This document shows, piece by piece, positions 3,077-30,607 of a DNA stretch of 64,000 nt. Within the stretch, counting starts at the first letter, position 1; each line of letters begins with the position of its first letter. The position numbers and the translations under genes were made by a program. The DNA comes from Gossypium raimondii (lineage: Eukaryota; Streptophyta; Magnoliopsida; Malvales; Malvaceae), in contig NC_068576.1 in assembly GCF_025698545.1 (NCBI RefSeq), positions 1,991,501 to 2,055,500 of the forward strand, written 5' to 3'. The notes beneath the pieces are model-generated. The model saw only the letters and a list, made by a program, of their open reading frames with translations. It made no database searches and was not told the origin of the DNA.

Positions 3077-5819
3077 GATCATAATGTACTCCAAAAACCC
3101 AAATTCATAGGGGAGAATGGGTTAAAAATTCAAGATTATTTGAAACCAGTCATTTATACTTAGAAAGATTGTTCTTATTTGCTGCATACAAATTACTTTA
3201 GCACTTGTGTTAGCGTTGATAATGGTTCCGCTCGAAATGATTTTGGAACAAAATTGCATTACCATTTATTATTTTAGTTTTAAAAAATCAAATGGTAAAA
3301 ATAATTGAACCGAATTGTATTGCTCAAAAAAATAAAAATAAAATCGGTGTAGTTAATCGATTTTTAAATTTTGCATTAAAACAAATTTTTATACTCGTTA
3401 TTCTCATTAATTTATTATAAAATGTTCCATTTTATTTCATAAAAAATTAAAAATATTTATATATTTTATATAAAATAAAAATTAAGAGTGTCCTATAAGT
3501 GGGTCTCGCTCAATAACCGACACTTCTAATGCCAACTATTATGTCCTATCTAAAGTGATTAATATTGTGTTCAATCGTCGCCTTACCTAGGGGTGTTCAA
3601 TTGGTTAACCGACCGGTTAATCAACCCGAACTAACATTAATCGAATTAACCAACCCTTTTAAACTCTTAACTGTTAACCGAACCGAAATTTTTTCAAAAA
3701 AAATTTAACCGAACCAAACTTTTTCGGTTAATTCGGTTGGTTAACTGAATTAACCAAAATTTATATTTTTTTTTATTTTTGGTTAAAACAAGTATAAAAC
3801 ATATAAAAAATTAACCGACTTAACCGACCGATTAATTTATATTTCCAAAAAATTAACCGAACCGACCGAATACTTATATATTATAATATTATTTATTAAA
3901 TTCGATTAATTCGGTTAGCCGACCGATTTGGAACCGAATTAACCGTTAACCAAACTTCCAAAAAATTATTAACCGGTCCCTGACCGAATTAATTCGATTA
4001 ACTGACCGATTAATCGAATTCAATCGGTTAACCGAATTAATTCAGTTTTACCCAAAATTTGCACACCCCTAGCCTTACCTAAAACTATGATGGCTAACCA
4101 ATTGATCAACTTGTCTTTGGCCGATCTAGGGGAAGATGACACATGGCACCTTAAGATCATAGAGAAGGGTATATAAACCCTTAGTTCTTGCCTAGAAAAT
4201 GATCCATTTTCCTCTCTTCTCTCTTTTCTCTTTTCTTCCTTTCTCCCTCCTCCTTCCCCTCGACTCTATCAATTACCATAGCCAGGCTACCGCACACAAC
4301 AGCTCTCCGCCTTACTTTAAGCAATATCCTCACAGGTAAAACTCAAGACAAAACCAATATCATATCCACCTTACTTGATTCTTATATCAACAATTAGTAC
4401 AGTAAGTGTGGGCCACTTTCATTGCAATATTTTCCTGATGCAACATTCCTACTGGTCAAACTCAAGTCTAACCCAAAATACTAATCAAACTTAGCCAAAT
4501 CAAAACTTTGGAAGTTATTATTACTATGGCACCCGACACTTTACTCGGCCGGTGGGTCTAAAAGCAAGATGTCACCCTCTGTTGCTGGAGCAACTCAGAC
4601 TATCCTCACTTGCTTCATTGAAGCTAAACACACAAGTGTTGAAAAAAATCATAATTATCCATATTGTCCAAGTGAAATACACGTGAAAGAGGTCAAATGG
4701 GCCCACAAGTAATGACCTGGGGATATATGTGGTCAATTACGAAGTCAAGATGCAAGTCTTAACTCAAAGTGTCAAAATGGAGGGCTTTATCTTAATACCT
4801 TAAGGATAGGTCTCAATACTTGCCTCCTTTTTTTTAGAACCTCAGTTTCGATGTTTTCAGGTCTCGATACTTTAGTCTCAAGTCTCAATACCTGAGATAC
4901 AACATTTTTAATTTAGTTTCGATGTTTTGAGGTCTCGAGACATGGGGTTTATGTTTTGGTCATAAGTGCAAAGCCCAAAGCCAAAATATCATAGGGTAAA
5001 CTTTATGTTTTGGCCATTAAACTATTCAAAAGTTTTCATTTAAGTTATTAAGCTGTTAATTGTTGATGTATGGCCTTCTTTTTTCGCACCACTTGCACTA
5101 ATCGAAAGCTCTCTTTCCACTTCTCTTCTACAGTTCAGTCATTTTCTTTAAATAACTTTGAATGTCATAAATCTATGAACCAAAATACAAACAACTTGAA
5201 TATACGGTATGTTCTTTTACTTGTTAATGTATTTTAATTCACCATGCCAATTATAAAATCGTGCTTAGAGTTCGCTAGCCCGACTTAGAAAAAACTTAAT
5301 AGCTGAATGACTTAAATAAAAAAAATTGAATACTTTAATTACTTACATGAAAATTTTCGAATAATCTAATAATTTTATAACATTTTAGAATTAAATAGTC
5401 AAAATGTAAATTTATTAATAAATTAATCGCATCAGTGTAGGTTACCGGATATTATAGTTCCGGTTGCGGATTTTAGCGGTTGGTTGGCGAGGGCGGGATA
5501 ATTTCACCTTTGGGCCGGCGGTTAAATTTCACTGGCACTTGTCGGTTGTCGAATGGAACTACAGATTCGTGACGGTTATGCTTGCGTATCCATCTTGTTT
5601 TCTGATAACTGTGTATCCATTTTTTATTTCGTCGAGATGCGGTCCGCAGACTAAAAACAGTTCTGACCGTTAGATTTCATCTTATCGAACGATCAGTAAT
5701 TGACTGTTCATATTTAATTAAAAAGATTATCAGTGAGTGAGTCAGAGTGATACGTTAGCTACTATCATTAAAAGAAAAGAATGTTTTGATTTCGGAGCAA
5801 TAATTGAGGGAATCAGAAA
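3077..5819. other. Spacer between MDP1-like and PYD3 genes
   Basis: No gene is seen here apart from the MITE at 3588-4071. Bases 3480-3580 and 4080-4330 contain a TATA-like GTATATAAACCC (4171) followed by a CT-rich stretch, which may be a decayed LTR or a lost promoter. Bases 4790-4960 repeat short phrases such as GGTCTCAATACTT and GGTCTCGATACTT, a phrase family common in cotton-type repeats. The open frame at 5464-5673 shows no recognisable domain. The last 150 bases are the probable PYD3 leader. Confidence 0.5.
3588..4071. mobile_element. hAT-type MITE with perfect 8-bp target-site duplication
   Basis: A 484-bp element is bounded by inverted ends TAGGGGTGTTCAA (left) and its counterpart TAGGGGTGTGCAA (right, read on the minus strand). 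It is flanked on both sides by the identical 8-mer GCCTTACC (3580-3587 and 4072-4079). The interior is largely self-complementary, with many GGTTAACCGA / TCGGTTAAC words, so it would fold as one long hairpin. It has no coding capacity. Short inverted ends with an 8-bp duplication are the signature of non-autonomous hAT elements. Confidence 0.88.
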
Positions 5820-8412
5820 ATGGAGAAAACTGATGGAATTGGGAAAGAACATGGAAGCACAGAAGAAAATCAAAGTTTCAAAGATGGATCAATTTGTGGG
5901 TATAATTCGCTTCACCACCTCTTGAGCGCAAATCTCAAGCCTCAACTCTACCAGGTCTTTTCTTTTTCTTTTTTCCCGCTTTCCGAGTTGTAATTTATCT
6001 GCCTTCACTTTGTTGATTTAATTGGGTATTTTTGTTTTTCTTAATCTGGCCATGCACTGGGCAAAAAATTCCAATCTTTCCTGTTATTTTTCTTGCTTAT
6101 ATATATATATATATATTGTAAAAGCAAATTTAATCATGAAAAAGGAAACCCCAGTTCAAATTGTCTATTATGAATCGATTGGTTATTGTTATTTTGGTCA
6201 GTTTTTGCCACTGAAATGATCATTGCAGTCGATCCTAGAATTTGTAAACAGTTTATCTCATTAACAAGTAACATGTTTTGCCTATTAAAAGTCAAAATCT
6301 ACTGATCTTATTGCTGATGAAAGTAACAATCTTTTGGAATTTTGTTATGGTTTATTAACAGGAAGTCAGCCGGTTGCTTCTGGGGCTGAATTGCGGAAAA
6401 GCACTTGAAACTATTGTTCCACCTGAATCAGCTAAAGCCCTCTCTTCAAAACATGATTTTGATCTTCAGGTGCCTATTTATTTATCCAACATTACTGCAT
6501 TATAACGATTCGTTGATATAGAGATCCATCATCTTAGCTCATCAATATTGGAAAACAATAACCACAAGGTTGGCCTGGCTGAAATCGTAATACTCTTATA
6601 AAACAATCAAAGTGAAGGAACAATATATGTTTTGGACACGTTAGATATACAAGGCACTACCATGCATTTTGACTGCAACTGAAGATTATGTTAATCTTTA
6701 GGCAGGGTTAGTTAATCTATGTCATATGTTCTGATATTTGTATGGAATATTTTTCTTCCTCCATTTTCCGCCTTTTCCAGTTTCTAGTTCATACATTTGA
6801 ACATTTGGTTATAACACTTCTAATGTATAATTTTAGTACTACCAGGATCTCCTTGAAATATGTTGATTTTCATTCAATCCACTCTTATCTAAGTGGTTGA
6901 AAAACATCCCTTTTCTCATTACAAAATTATTCTCTTACCGACCTGACCTGAGCATACTTGTAGCTATTATCTCCGTAGATTTTTGTTATTAATACAAGTA
7001 TATTGTAGAAGGCAGTTATATGTGCTTTTCCATTTCAAATCATTCCAGGCTTTCAAATTTTCTGCTGACAAAGAGTTGTTAAGAGAACCCCGGGTAGTAA
7101 GGGTCGGTCTTATTCAGAACTCCATTGCTCTCCCAACCACTGCTCCCTTTTCAGACCAGAAAAAAGCTATCTTTGAGAAATTGGGACCAATAATTGATGC
7201 TGCTGGTGCTTCAGGAGTCAACATACTATGCTTGCAGGTATGGTCAATTTTATTGATCGTTGCATAATATTCTGAAAATGCAAATTAATGAGTCTATGAT
7301 GCAAGTTCAGGAAGCATGGATGATGCCATTTGCCTTCTGTACACGAGAAAAGAGGTGGTGTGAATTTGCAGAACCTGTTAACGGGAATCTACACAATTTC
7401 TTCAGGAATTTGCACTCAAGTATAACATGGTCATTATAAGCTCAATTCTTGAGAGGGATATAAATCATGGAGAGACTCTCTGGAATACTGCTGTTATAAT
7501 TGGAAATCATGGCAACATAATAGGCAAGCACCGTAAGGTAAATGCAGTAGTTTATCTGGGTTTGGGCTTATGTTTCTTGGAATTTTTATTGATTTTGCTT
7601 AATTGACTGGCTTCTGGCAGAACCATATTCCTAGAGTTGGGGACTTCAATGAGAGCACGTATTATATGGAAGGAAATACCGGGCATCCTGTATTTGAGAC
7701 TGCTTATGGGAAGATTGCTGTTAATATATGTTACGGAAGGCACCATCCTTTGAATTGGCTAGCTTTTGGTTTGAATGGTGCTGAGATCGTTTTCAACCCA
7801 TCAGCCACGGTTGGTGAACTTAGTGAACCGATGTGGCCCATTGAGGTTATTCTTTACCCTCATTTCATATAATACTTAACTATCTAAAGATTGGATGTGA
7901 TACTGATTTAGTAGAGAGTCATTTATGTAATATTACAAGTGCAAATGACATTTTGATACAGATGTTAGCATTATATCAGTTAATGCCTGCCTACCACTGA
8001 ACTGTCTTCTACAAGTCGTTTGACATATTATTCCTTTATATTACAGGCACGTAACGCTGCAATAGCAAACAGTTACTTTGTTGGGTCAATCAATCGTGTA
8101 GGGACTGAGATTTTCCCCAACCCATTCACCTCAGGGGATGGAAAGCCACCACATCCAGATTTTGGCCATTTCTATGGATCTAGTCATTTTTCAGCACCTG
8201 ATGCTTCCTGCACACCATCACTCTCCCGTTATAAGGATGGACTGATGATCTCAGATATGGATCTTAACCTCTGTAGGCAACTGAAAGACAAATGGGGGTT
8301 CCGAATGACTGCAAGATATGAGTTATATGCAGATACGCTTGCCAGTTATCTGAAACCAGACTTTGAACCCCAAGTCATCTCTGATCCCTTGTTACATAAG
8401 AAGTCTTTTTAA
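5820..8412 (+). CDS. PYD3: Beta-ureidopropionase (beta-alanine synthase), with a one-base frameshift in exon 4
   Basis: Six exons: 5820-5954, 6362-6469, 7049-7237, 7311-7537, 7621-7845 and 8047-8412. The product hydrolyses N-carbamoyl-beta-alanine to beta-alanine, CO2 and ammonia, the last step of reductive uracil breakdown. It belongs to the carbon-nitrogen hydrolase (nitrilase) superfamily and would be about 416 residues if in frame. The catalytic triad is visible: Glu in LQEAW (about 145), Lys in KHRKNH (about 220) and Cys in NICYGR (about 257). Every exon is a multiple of three except exon 4, which is 227 bases where 228 is expected. The reading changes frame at the G run 7383-7385: before it the protein reads EFAEPVNG, and after it the conserved [15 protein letters not shown] appears one base out of register. 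As written, translation stops about 16 codons later. All splice sites and both flanks are otherwise intact, so this is either a very recent null allele or a base-call error in a homopolymer. Confidence 0.9.
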
Positions 8413-9027
8413 GTACCTGTCTTCTTAAGTTCCAGGTACTAATTGCAGCTTAATGTATGAAGTTAATAAATGGAGATGAAAATAGAAACTGTATTGATTT
8501 ATCATATTGAATCATCCACAAGAACAAGTTCGTTGTGTTTGTAAGTATTTGTGCCCTTTTCTGTTTTCAATGAGTCAGCAATTTCTGATCACTCCACCAG
8601 CTTCCATTTTTATTAAGATGAAGAAAAAGGAATCTTGGTGTCTGCGTTTGGTGAAAAAATATAAAATGAAGTGGAATGAATGTCGACAAGCTCACCGACT
8701 CTCTTTTTCCCTCTTTTTTCTGTTTCTATAAAATCTTCCAAGTCTCATCATCTAAGCTTATCCACAATTAAAAGTATATACATACATATATATATCTACT
8801 ACTTAAACAGACTTTTCAAAGCCTTTTTAGAAGCAGAGAGATAAAGTGAGAAAGAGAGATAATTGTGCTTATTAACAACAAATACACGGCATTATAATTT
8901 TGAAGGCCCACTGTGTAAGAGTAAATGTTCAACTTAACAGTTCATACATACTTGATCTCTATCCAAAAGAAACTCGAGCTTCTAAATTCAAGATACGCTA
9001 TTTCAGGCTTCCTACTAGCTTATGAAC
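8413..9027. other. 3' flanks of convergent PYD3 and NIC1 genes
   Basis: About 600 bases separate the two stop codons. The PYD3 side carries AATAAATGG (8466), a plausible poly(A) signal. Short AT microsatellite steps lie near 8775-8795. No open frame here resembles a known protein. Confidence 0.5.
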
Positions 9028-12049: not shown

Positions 12050-12622
12050 AACATGTTGAGACAAACCTTCTTCATGTAAAACATGTTTGATTTAGATCGA
12101 GAGAATCGTACGGTTTTATGAAATCATGTGTATATGGATCAAATCCGTAGTCAATCCTATTTCCGATAGGAGCAGTTGACAATTGAATCTAACTTTTTCC
12201 ATTATTTTCGTATCTGTAATAGTGCGAAAGGAAAGTCTGGCTCCAAGTTGTTCAAGAATAGTGGCGTTGTTAAGTTTCTCAATCCTTTGACTTAGGATTA
12301 GTCAGTTCTATATCTTGACGGGGGCAGGGAAGGGATATAACTTAGCGTTAGAGTGTCACCTTGATGTGGTGGAAGTCATCAGTTCAAGTCTGATTATCCA
12401 TAAACCTAATGTGAGTTTTTCTATTTTGCCTTGCCCCTCGCCGTGATCGAATAAGAATGGATAAGAGGCTCATGGGATTGATGTGAGGGGGTAAGGATGA
12501 CTATATTTCTGGGAGAGAACTCCAGGTGAATATGAAGCGCATAGATACAAGTTATGCCTTGGAGTGAAAGACAATTCTGAACCGGCTTTGTCTACGAACA
12601 AGAAAGCTATAAGTAATGCAAC
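12050..12622 (+). mobile_element. Nuclear insertion of plastid DNA (NUPT): spacer, trnV-GAC and rrn16 leader
   Basis: I recognise the plastid inverted-repeat segment that runs from the rps12-trnV spacer through trnV(GAC) into the 16S rRNA promoter and leader. The leader portion includes the stretches around GTGATCGAATAAGAATGG and GAAGCGCATAGATACAAG, up to GCAACTAT, where plastid similarity stops at about 12622. The match is long and collinear but carries scattered changes, many of them C-to-T or G-to-A, as expected for an old methylated nuclear copy. The left limit near 12050 is approximate. It does not include the 16S gene itself. Confidence 0.85.
12331..12402 (+). pseudogene. Decayed plastid-type tRNA-Val(GAC) gene
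   Basis: The 72-base cloverleaf of plastid trnV-GAC can be traced from AGGGATATAA to TATCCATA. Compared with the plastid gene as I know it, the anticodon-loop GAC reads GAT, the T-loop TTCGAGC reads TTCAAGT, the D-loop GCGGTA reads GCGTTA, and the acceptor pairing is broken by CCAT for CCCT. Several changes are at former CpG sites. It is part of the plastid insertion and is not expected to be a working tRNA. Confidence 0.82.
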
Positions 12623-16060: not shown

Positions 16061-16522
16061 ACGAAAAAATATGAAGACCAATTAACTAAAATTTTTGTTT
16101 GAAATGATGATTTAACGTGCCATGTCAGCTTAACATTACACCGTTAACAATAATTAACGGCTCAGTGACTAAAATGTAATTTAAAAAAATAAAAGTGACT
16201 GTTTTGATAGTTTACCCTTATTTAAATGATATTGGGATATTTTTAGAAAAAAAATGGAATAGTACCTTAAAAAAGAAAACAGCTACAGAACCGAGCCTTC
16301 ATAACAGACATTTTTCCGTATCACTACACTGTTTCCTAATCACGTTCTCACACTGCTACGCTATATCCACCCAAAACCAAGCCAAATCCCACCTTAAATT
16401 CCTTTGAAACGTTCAATCCTCAATCTTCAGGTTCTGATATGATCCCATGATTCCATTTCCCATTACCAGTTCTTTTCACCTCTTTACTCTTCCAACACAT
16501 TAAAGCAACCTCTTATACTAAT
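16061..16522. other. Upstream region of the plastid FBPase gene
   Basis: AT-rich DNA passing into a C/T-rich leader (16290-16520) typical of a plant 5' UTR. No separate gene is seen. Confidence 0.4.
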
Positions 16523-18339
16523 ATGCGACAATTATTGTCTCCCACCATCTCCTACCCATCTCCACTTCTCCATCTAACTTCCCATCCTTTCCCTCCAAAA
16601 CCCCACTTCTGTCCTACCCACAGGTTGAGCTTTTACCCCCCACCAAAAATGGCTTCTTTTTCTGGGTTTTTGGCTAAGTCTCAGATGGGCATGACTGCTG
16701 CTGCTGCTGCTGGTGATGGTGCAAATGGGTTCTCTTCACTGATGGACTATGTTGGGAAAGGAGGACTAGATGTAGGAGATGATTTACTTGTTTTGCTTTA
16801 TCATATACAGTTTGCTTGCAAGAGAATTGCTGCTCTTGTGGCTTCTCCCTTCAATTCTGCTCTCGGGAAACATTCAGCTCTCACTGGTGCCACATCCGGG
16901 GCCGCTGCTTCTGATAGGGATAAGCCAAAGCCGCTTGATATTGTGGCAGTATGTTTAACTATGCTAATTTCGTCATTGAATTTCATGAAAATATTGCTCT
17001 TTTTTCCCTTTAAGTAGTATTTTCATGGTGCACTGGTATATTGTTGGGCATATAACTCTTAAATAGTTTGGCTGCGATTATAATTGACATGAATTCTTAA
17101 TAGTATGAATGATTGCATCATTGCAAATTATTAGAGCAAGAAAAGAGGTTGAGTTGATACAGAAACAGATTGATTTTAAAGATGCAAATCAGTCGAACTT
17201 TAGGTTTTCAATGCCCCTTTCAATTTTTTTTTAAACTAGAGTAAAAGGAATTGAGTAGGGAAAAAAGAATTAAAGTTTTCTGATATGCTAAAATTTTGGT
17301 TTTTTTTCCTGCAGAATGAAATCATATTGTCATCTCTTAGAAATTCAGGAAAAGTTTCAGTGATGGCTTCAGAAGAAGATGATGCTCCAATTTGGATCAA
17401 TGATGATGGTCCCTTTGTGGTTGTATTGGATCCCCTTGATGGTTCTCGAAATATAGATGCTTCTATTCCCACTGGAACAATCTTTGGGGTATATAACCGG
17501 CTCACAGAGCTAGATAATCAACCGACGGAAGAGAAGGCATTGCTGAATTCGCTACAGAGCGGAAGAAAGCTTGTAGCTGCTGGCTATGTCCTCTATTCAT
17601 CTGCCACAATCCTATGTGCTAGCTTTGGCTCAGGAACACATGCATTTACCTTAGATCATTCAACGGGAGACTTTATTCTCACACATCCAAGCATTAGAAT
17701 TCCGCCTCGAGGTAAACGTACTGGAATTTTGAGGGTTAAAATGTTATGCTCATGGAATTCATTGAGATATCTGATATTTGCTTCACAAATTCAATGGTAT
17801 CCTATTTGGATTTTCTTACTGATGGTCTTCATTAACAGTTTGATTAAATGGGAACTCTTAATCATATGAAAGTATGAAATTAATATTGTTTTTTTTATCC
17901 CATTAATAATTCAAGCTCGGCCTACTTGATGATTCCAGGTCAAATATATTCTGTCAATGATGCAAGGTATTTCGATTGGCCTGAAGGTCTAAGGCAATAC
18001 ATTGATACAGTAAGACAAGGCAAAGGCAAATTCCCTAAGAAATATTCGGCTCGGTATATATGTTCGTTGGTTGCTGATTTCCATAGGACCGTGTTGTACG
18101 GTGGAATAGCAATGAATCCAAGGGACCATCTGCGGCTGGTTTACGAGGCAAACCCTCTAAGTTATCTTGCAGAGCAAGCTGGAGGCAAAGGTTCGGATGG
18201 TAAAAGTAGGATACTTTCGATCCAACCGGTGAAACTGCATCAAAGATTGCCTCTGTTTTTGGGTAGTTTGGAAGATATAGATGAGTTGGAAAGTTATGGA
18301 GATGTTCAACAGAAAGTAAACCCTGGGTATGAAGTTTAA
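16523..18339 (+). CDS. CFBP2: Chloroplast fructose-1,6-bisphosphatase, redox-insensitive type (cpFBP2-like)
   Basis: Three exons: 16523-16948, 17315-17711 and 17939-18339, giving 407 residues. It hydrolyses fructose 1,6-bisphosphate to fructose 6-phosphate. The first 43 or so residues are rich in Ser, Pro and His and low in acidic residues, as expected of a plastid transit peptide before MASFSGF. The metal and phosphate motifs are present: SEEDDAPIW, then LDPLDGSRNIDAS, GRKLVAAGYVLY, and the FBPase signature LRLVYEANP near the C-terminus. Between IFGVYNR and the GRKLVAAGY motif the loop is short and has no cysteine. The light-regulated isoform (cpFBP1) carries a longer insert here with the redox disulfide, so this is the non-thioredoxin-regulated isoform. 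No disabling change is seen. Starting at the second Met (16649) would remove the transit peptide, so the first ATG is preferred. Confidence 0.92.
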
Positions 18340-24400: not shown

Positions 24401-24841
24401 TTGAGTGGTCTTGACACTTGCCGTGTCTTTGAAATGGTCTCTCCGTCAGATTGATGTTAATAATGCATTCTTAAATGGTGATTTAAGTGAAGAAATATAT
24501 ATGGTACAACCACCAGGTTTTGAACAACAATGCGGTAATGGCCAGCAGCTGGTATGCAGGTTGAGGAAAGCTTTGTACGGGCTCAAGCAAGCCCCTCGAG
24601 CTTGGTTCCACAAGTTAAGGGAGTTCTTACTTGGAAATCAGTTTGAAACTTCAATGGCAGACAATTCCCTCTTTATTCATAAAGTTAGGAATTATTTGAT
24701 GTATGTCCTCGTCTATGTTGATGACATCGTGGTTACTGGTTCTAATTCGAGAGCTGTAGATCATTTTATTACACGTCTCAACCACCAGTTTTCTCTAAAA
24801 GATTTGGGGAGGTTAAACTACTTTCTAGGTATTGAAGGAAC

Positions 24842-25661
24842 TGATACGAGCCAAGGAGGTGACACTCAAGGGGTTGTTTTTCCTAGTGGTCCAATTACTC
24901 GAAGCAAGGCACGACAATTAAAATTAAAGATGAATGCTTTTGTCCAAGACTTTGTTGCTACAAATTTAATTCATCCTGTTCGTGACATTGACAAATACGA
25001 GAATGCAATTCACTGGACCAATCTTGGAATAGTGAAAGCCCATAAATTGGTGGATTAATCTTTTATGTATATTATTATTATTATTTACTTAATTCTCATT
25101 GGTTGGGACACATCATTTATGAGTTAAGTAATTTTATTGGTTAGGTTATTATTTATTTATTTTCTTAGATAATTTTAAAGAGTTTTATTAGGATTCAATT
25201 ACTCTTTAAAGAGTTTTTATTAGGATTCAATTACTCTTGAAAGAGTTTTATTAGGATTCAATTACTCTTGTAATTTGCCTATAAATAGGCTTGTTTTCTA
25301 CACATTGAGGGAGAATAAAAGAAGAGTATTTGTTTTCTTTCAAATTTGTGTGAGGCAAATTTTTGGGAGTAGAGTGATTCTTCTCTTGCTATTTAGTTTG
25401 GAGTTTGTTACTTTGAGGTATTTGAGTTGCAAATATTCAAATTTCTTTCCGTTCATCGGTGTTTCTAGAGGTTCTTCTTCTAGGGGTTTCGTGAGGAGCC
25501 GCTCAATCATTGGCGTTTTGGTTACAAGTTAACCAAGGATTTCATAGGTAAATCTATCCTTTTATTTATTTATTTATTTATTTATTATTTAACTAATTTT
25601 ATTTATTCTCGTTTTATTTCTAATTTGTGTTTCTCTTGTGTCTAGATCCGGTTTCGTATCG
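24842..25661 (+). repeat. 5' LTR of the gypsy element
   Basis: It contains a TATA box (TATAAATA, 25280-25287) preceded by three tandem copies (about 31 bp each, 25177-25270) of AAAGAGTTTTATTAGGATTC followed by AATTACTCTT. This is an array in the U3 position that could act as an enhancer. A TTTA microsatellite lies near 25560-25590. The small open frame at 25275-25532 is LTR sequence and not a gene. Confidence 0.92.
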
Positions 25662-29400: not shown

Positions 29401-29867
29401 TACCTTTGAATGAGATTGCTAATTTAGATGGTGAAAGGAAAGCTGATTTAGTGAAAGAGATCCATGAGAAGGCTCGTAAAGCCATTGAGAAAAAGAATGA
29501 GTCTAATGCACATCGAGCTAATAAAGGGCGAAAGCAAGTCTTGTTTGAACTTGGAGATTGGGTATGGGTGTATATGAGGAAGGAACAATTTCCTTCTAAG
29601 AGAAAGAATAAACTTGATGCACGAGGAGATGGACCATTCCAAGTACTCGAGAAAATAAATGACAATGCTTATCGCATTGATCTTCCTGGTGAGTATAGTG
29701 TTAGTGCTACTTTCAATGTTTCTGATCTTTCTCCTTTTGAATTTGATGCGTGTTCGATTCGAGGACTAATCTTCTTGAAGAGGGAGAATGATACGAGCCA
29801 AGGAGGTGACACTCAATGGGTTGTTTTTCCTAGTGGTCCAATTACTCAAGCAAGGCACGACAATTAA
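26439..29867 (+). pseudogene. Gypsy Pol: protease, reverse transcriptase, RNase H, integrase with three in-frame stops
   Basis: One continuous frame encodes the aspartic protease (LIIDSGSCTNVV, about 26540), then the reverse transcriptase with LVPKKDGSWRICIDCR and the catalytic YFDDILIYS (about 27727). RNase H follows ([26 protein letters not shown]), then the integrase HHCC-type module and DDE core (VVVDRFSKMAHF, SDRDAKF, a late catalytic-region Glu), and a GDWVWVYMRKEQFP tail. The frame is interrupted only by TAG at 28068, TAA at 28842 and TGA at 28959. Each fits one C-to-T or G-to-A change (Trp, Gln and Arg expected). The N-terminus MPITRSQTSKNEE joins directly to the protease, which suggests that gag was deleted. 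The frame continues into the 3' LTR and ends early there at 29867. Confidence 0.92.
29775..29788 (+). promoter_or_regulatory. Polypurine tract of the gypsy element
   Basis: TGAAGAGGGAGAA lies directly before the TGATACG start of the 3' LTR, the expected place for plus-strand priming. Confidence 0.8.
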
Positions 29868-30607
29868 AATTAAAGATGAATGCTTTTGTCCAAGACTTTG
29901 TTGCTACAAATTTAATTCATCCTGCTCGTGACATTGACAAATACGAGAATGCAATTCAACGGACCAATCTTGGAATAGTGAAAGCCCATAAATTGGTGGA
30001 TTAATCTTTTATGTATATTATTATTATTATTTACTTAATTCTCATTGGTTGGGACACATCATTTATGAGTTAAGTAATTTTATTGGTTAGGTTATTATTT
30101 ATTTATTTTCTTAGATAATTTTAAAGAGTTTTATTAGGATTCAATTACTCTTTAAAGAGTTTTTATTAGGATTCAATTACTCTTGAAAGAGTTTTATTAG
30201 GATTCAATTACTCTTGTAATTTGCCTATAAATAGGCTTGTTTTCTACACATTGAGGGGAGAATAAAAAGAAGAGTATTTGTTTTCTTTCAAATTTGTGTG
30301 AGGCAAATTTTTGGGAGTAGAGTGATTCTTCTCTTGCTATTTAGTTTGGAGTTTGTTACTTTCGAAGGTATTTCGGAGTTGCAAATATTCAAATTTCTTT
30401 CCCGTTCATCGGTGTTTCTAGAGGTTCTTCTTCTAGGGGTTTCGTAGGGAGCCGCTCAATCATTGGTGTTTTTGGTTACAAGTTAACCAAGGGTTCCATA
30501 GGGCAAATCTATCCTTTTTATTTATTTATTATTTAACTAATTTTATTTATTCTCGTTTTATTTCTAATTTGTGTTTCTCTTGTGTCTAGATCCGGATTTC
30601 CGTATCA
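29789..30607 (+). repeat. 3' LTR of the gypsy element
   Basis: Ends in CCGTATCA against the copia sequence. It carries the same three-copy U3 repeat (30123-30215) and TATA box as the 5' LTR. Relative to the 5' copy it lacks one G (ACTCAAGC for ACTCGAAGC near 29848), which truncates the Pol tail. Most other length differences are extra bases in short homopolymers (for example near 30255, 30268 and 30400). Confidence 0.92.

Follow-up and report, generated by a model that had tools for sequence, protein, structure and literature searches.

In Arabidopsis, a single gene serves each step of the pathway that degrades uracil to beta-alanine, as described in an excerpt of PMC2713857. The Arabidopsis pyd3 knockout is a T-DNA insertion. 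The beta-ureidopropionase (PYD3) gene of Gossypium raimondii considered here resembles the plant PYD3 of Arabidopsis (At5g64370) in belonging to the CN_hydrolase family and in having its splice sites and catalytic residues preserved. In contrast, the assembled sequence has a frame break in exon 4. Should the base really be absent from the plant, the biochemical lesion would be the same as in the Arabidopsis knockout, although it would come from a natural one-base loss and not from a T-DNA insertion. The single gene per step in Arabidopsis also differs from the many transposon-borne PYD3 copies in this genome. A limited literature search on PYD3 capture or PYD3 pseudogenes returned nothing on point, which does not prove that no report exists.

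These copies resemble Pack-TYPE transposons in their inverted termini, their captured exons and introns, the presence of several copies, and the TAA flanking several of them. One copy subfamily also carries a PPR-like fragment. They differ in that one copy, C1, carries all six exons within its 3303 bases.

A third comparison is with sequencing error. For the ONT base-callers current at the time, excerpts of Wick et al. 2019 (PMC6591954) place about 70% of errors in Dcm sites (5-methylcytosine in CCWGG), with homopolymer length as the next error class, and part of PMC9749173 names plant methylation as a likely cause of lost nanopore accuracy. The PYD3 copies share with the Dcm case what appear to be CWG-centred errors and homopolymer length errors, although here the pattern is read from a comparison of copies in a plant.

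The PYD3 gene and its break

The window analysed is a stretch of 64,000 nucleotides (C12:1991501-2055500, NC_068576.1, forward strand) from a G. raimondii assembly of 750.8 Mb in 281 contigs, and its genes are those expected of a plant. It contains a six-exon PYD3 gene at 5820-8412 on the plus strand:

5820..5954, plus strand: exon 1, 135 bases; start codon 5820-5822
6362..6469, plus strand: exon 2, 108 bases
7049..7237, plus strand: exon 3, 189 bases; contains the GTA codon 7094-7096
7311..7537, plus strand: exon 4, 227 bases, a multiple of three minus one
7383..7385, plus strand: frame-breaking G run within exon 4
7437..7439, plus strand: premature TAA in exon 4, in the frame as assembled
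7621..7845, plus strand: exon 5, 225 bases
8047..8412, plus strand: exon 6, 366 bases; stop 8410-8412
5781..8566, plus strand: stretch common to the window and the C1 whole-gene copy (C1 3079969-3083271), 97%

All five introns are GT...AG, and the coding sequence as assembled has 1250 bases. Three-frame translation of exon 4 shows that the conserved reading switches frame at the G run. A second break was looked for across the coding sequence and none was found, the rest being in frame. As assembled, the gene is not open in a single frame between its start codon and its final stop, and its product ends at the TAA after 186 residues of about 417 codons. With an X at the break, the protein aligns with the solved beta-ureidopropionases PDB 2vhh, 8pt4, and 6ftq (E values 4.6e-161, 5.4e-151, and 3.5e-150) from query residue 28 or 30 to 407 or 408, a near full-length similarity to beta-ureidopropionase (PYD3/UPB1). 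The putative catalytic codons are GAA (Glu, 7311-7313), AAG (Lys, 7535-7537), and TGT (Cys, 7729-7731), and we take these residues to have their catalytic roles in this protein. The Lys and Cys codons lie downstream of the premature stop.

An initial annotation, made from the letters of the window, had described a gene with six exons, splice sites and catalytic residues intact, perfect apart from a shift at the G run that leaves exon 4 one base short and stops the protein before the catalytic Lys and Cys. This description agrees with the present results. It placed the stop about 16 codons after the shift; the premature stop is there, but the TAA lies 17 codons past the run.

PYD3 copies in the genome

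Searching the genome at the DNA level with window positions 5821-8450 (2630 bases) gave at least 39 matches. Grouped by hand, they comprise the window itself, at least 23 further places that each match over 250 bases or more in total, and at least three under 80 bases. The initial annotation had seen the gene in its own context only, and these further copies and fragments show that PYD3 sequence is not single-copy in the genome. Eighteen of the 23 places were examined, the other five matching just the first 274-286 bases, short of the break. The examined copies begin at window position 5781 in 14 cases of 18, and their 3' limits fall at about 7664-7667 (eight), 7523 (eight), 6079 (one), and 8566 (one, C1). 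Their outer sequence is common among them and absent from the window.

The copies end in GGGTCYGTTTG and CAAACRGACCC, inverted with respect to each other. TAA flanks both ends of C11, C5a, and C6b, is unclear in C7a and C1, and is replaced by GAA in C6a; in the remaining copies one or both ends are not in hand or are ambiguous. The inverted termini, the TWA target duplication with C7a, C1, and C6a as exceptions, and the capture of a host gene for which the window PYD3 would be the native donor fit Pack-TYPE PIF/Harbinger elements, a class assigned from these sequence features. In the C5 copy, the PYD3 exon-1 and exon-3/4 pieces are separated by about 1.6 kb that includes a PPR-like reading frame. 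This frame matches PF01535 at a level below the curated cut-off (E 0.00025), and the copy is perhaps a chimeric capture of two genes.

The full 2630-base query is matched at two places, the window and C1, among the matches listed; no third whole copy was found among them. The C1 copy has all six exons and the introns, is 97% like the window, and lies in a transposon-like element (C1:3079969-3083271) with a perfect 13-base inverted repeat. It also lacks a clean frame: exon 4 is missing two bases at 7476-7477 and exon 3 is missing one codon. Because of its own two-base loss in exon 4, the C1 copy as assembled cannot replace the window gene. Its unrelated flanks and transposon-like ends rule it out as a homeologue. 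The comparison with a homeologous or sister-species locus suggested in the initial annotation was made inside the genome, where 15 other copies cover the site.

The window gene as donor

The window PYD3 has no transposon ends. The exon-3 codon GTA is present in the window and missing in all seven copies that cover that part, and an alignment with solved structures shows that it is also present in animal proteins. The lack of this codon in the seven copies and its presence in the window suggest that the window gene is the native donor and that the G run was originally longer. An FBPase gene lies 8 kb downstream, and the neighbour of PYD3 in Arabidopsis is presumably also an FBPase gene (At5g64370/At5g64380). 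The window gene is thus likely to be the native PYD3 and the donor of the captures. The FBPase gene itself (16502-18336) has its exons in frame, is about ten residues shorter than solved plant FBPases over the matched stretch, and is possibly of the second plastid type.

Between the window and C1, 19 of 1245 exon positions differ, and 40 of 1503 other positions. The exon differences comprise 13 nonsynonymous and 6 synonymous changes, compared with a neutral ratio of possible changes of about 3.6 to 1. Both results are as would be expected under continued constraint on the window gene. When only those positions are counted at which C1 together with three quarters or more of the copies departs from the window, there are 3 among 699 exon positions and 14 among 1181 others, with exon limits that are off by one or two bases. 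These figures fit a window PYD3 that stayed under constraint after capture. Neither relaxed constraint nor further lesions, the marks of a unitary pseudogene, were found in it.

State of the G run

The run at 7383-7385 is covered by 15 copies, of which six have GGGG, two another four-letter form, four GGG, and three a rearranged form:

GGGG: C1, C6a, C13, C6b, C5a, C5b
Other four-letter forms: GGGA in C2, GAGG in C8
GGG: C7a, C11, C10a, C5c
Rearranged: CTGGG in C9 and C10c, CTGG in C5d

Because the copies form one group that excludes the window, four letters are likely to be ancestral, and the three letters of the window would be a later loss or an error. An ancestral loss common to the window and the GGG copies is ruled out by the exon-3 codon, which all seven covering copies lack and the window keeps. 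This indicates that the loss in the window, as judged from these alignments, either postdates the transposon capture or is unreal. Over the 185 bases at 7291-7475, the only difference between the window and C1 is the length of the run.

Indels at CWG sites

In the 15 copies covering the run, indels lie on 53 of 531 CAG/CTG (CWG) sites. The control motifs in the same copies have indels at 3 of 214 GWC sites, 15 of 720 CWC/GWG sites, and 16 of 432 ACT/AGT sites; overlapping sites can count a single indel twice. The concentration on CAG/CTG is seen in C5c, C10c, C5d, C11, and others. The load is uneven, with 8 of 21 sites hit in C5c, 8 of 16 in C10c, and 9 of 18 in C5d, compared with 0 of 18 in C5a and C5b and 0 of 93 in C1. 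The same one-base losses occur in both structural families at 7236, 7274, 7370, 7405, 7455, and 7481, and 7455 is not a CWG site.

In a tree with CHG and CG sites masked, C5d clusters with the undamaged C5a and C5b (support 0.854), and the damaged copies do not form one clade, several nodes of this tree being poorly supported. The damage is also unrelated to branch length: C10c is short and heavily hit, and C2 is long and nearly clean. Because damage does not track branch length, a real CWG-specific mutation process in the copies is disfavoured and much less likely. The pattern resembles nanopore miscalls at methylated cytosines.

Among the nine copies with CWG damage, 7 have an altered run (GGG, CTGGG, or CTGG), compared with 0 of 6 undamaged copies (Fisher p = 0.007, at damage thresholds of 0.05 and 0.07), a post hoc comparison among related, non-independent copies. 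At the stricter threshold of 0.12 the post hoc proportions are 4 of 5 and 3 of 10 (p = 0.12), and for strict GGG they are 4 of 9 and 0 of 6 (p = 0.10, not significant). C8 (GAGG) and C13 (GGGG) have CWG damage without base loss in the run. Indels concentrated on CWG sites and recurring in unrelated copies characterize the transposon copies and not the window gene, in which no CWG damage was found; its coding sequence holds 49 CWG sites and 22 homopolymers at least four bases long.

Accuracy of the assembly elsewhere

A hand count of GRAS matches in the genome gave 94, of which 77 have the full domain in one frame, one of these with an internal TAA. The remaining loci include four fragments and five split loci, with no clean single-shift gene among these nine. 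The split loci are:

C3:77625: pieces in the same frame
C9:47258502: 985-base gap and TGA
C8:311496: shifted, two TGA
C9:48883376: shifted, incomplete
C8:54446039: scattered, with stops

Because the GRAS genes are clean, an isolated frameshift in a gene of this assembly is unusual, whatever its cause. The gypsy pol region in the window contains 36 CWG sites and reads in a single frame for 3.5 kb. The gypsy LTR pair 24838-25660 / 29786-30606, unrelated to PYD3, has more indels (13) than mismatches (10), few CWG sites (3 and 1), and, near a GGG/GGGG difference, a CTG/ACG difference resembling that of the PYD3 copies. A second LTR pair has 13 mismatches and just 2 indels. Shifts are nearly absent from the GRAS genes, from the pol region of the gypsy element, and from the second LTR pair, which rules out uniform assembly noise.

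Explanations for the missing base

The initial annotation had left the choice between a fresh null and a homopolymer base-call error undecided. The comparison of copies favours the error over the null: the missing G is probably (about 0.6) an uncorrected error of the consensus and not a mutation. Nanopore reads would miscall cytosines methylated in ways foreign to the training of the base-caller, as well as G runs close to them, and bases would be dropped in this way. Most genes would come out clean, and PYD3 exon 4 has 15 close copies. Because 7291-7475 is identical in the window and C1 save for run length, correcting short reads that carry the longer run would align preferentially to C1, and a miscall made early in the window could escape correction. 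The use of nanopore data, methylation as the cause, and the window site as an instance are all suppositions of this account. It is this setting, the identity of the window and C1 around the break, that tips the balance towards error. On this account, the window gene is the native PYD3 and was working until recently, or still is.

A true absence of the G, from slippage in the run, would be a recent and perhaps heterozygous null of the only native PYD3. This is a serious but clearly less probable reading. The gene lies in a clean context, frameshifts are rare elsewhere, as in the GRAS genes, and the window PYD3 itself lacks CWG damage; the sole other whole-gene copy (C1) has no clean frame either. 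The lack of a second lesion and the signs of constraint mean, however, that such a loss must be very recent, and copies with an error-like pattern have alterations at this very run. The null keeps its weight because the loss is tolerable: an excerpt of PMC2713857 describes Arabidopsis pyd3 knockouts without obvious phenotype in optimal conditions. It is very improbable that programmed frameshifting or alternative splicing keeps the gene functional, and no support for either was found in the sequence. Use of the splice donor GCACC|GTAAGG, which lies five bases upstream, would bring the later exons back into frame, yet the stop at 7437-7439 remains, and by the rule for a canonical slippery heptamer the run at 7383-7385 is not one. 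Both rescues are ruled out on these grounds. It is equally hard to sustain that the window gene is a dead duplicate of a functional gene elsewhere. The many PYD3 copies in the genome would allow it, but only the window and C1 match the full query among the matches listed, C1 is broken and inside a transposon-like element, and the window keeps the exon-3 codon of orthologues and has the FBPase gene nearby.

Consequences and context

If the G is truly missing, the protein would be cut off at 186 residues, short of the catalytic Lys and Cys, and the conversion of uracil to beta-alanine would fail at its last step. On that rather doubtful reading, judged slightly less probable than the missing base itself, the only native PYD3 would just have been lost, and some two dozen transposon-borne copies and fragments would remain, one with six exons. 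The locus would then represent a naturally occurring null for uracil catabolism, located in the donor gene of an amplified capture, and epigenetic pressure exerted by the captured copies would possibly act on this donor. It would also allow proneness to loss to be tested among donors of much-amplified captures.

If the break is instead a base-call error, a false frameshift can persist in a gene whose exons are also borne by transposons, while single-copy neighbours get corrected, and annotators would label such a gene a pseudogene. The copy set could serve directly to test how well CWG sites are base-called in plant assemblies.

Matches to PF01180 on C3 and C9 correspond to dihydroorotate/dihydropyrimidine-dehydrogenase-type exons, which belong to the context of the uracil pathway but gave no assignment to PYD1. 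The window also contains a tRNA-Ile gene with anticodon GAT at 12331-12402, which has no bearing on PYD3. This anticodon is unusual for a plant nuclear tRNA-Ile gene, and the gene is possibly of organelle origin.
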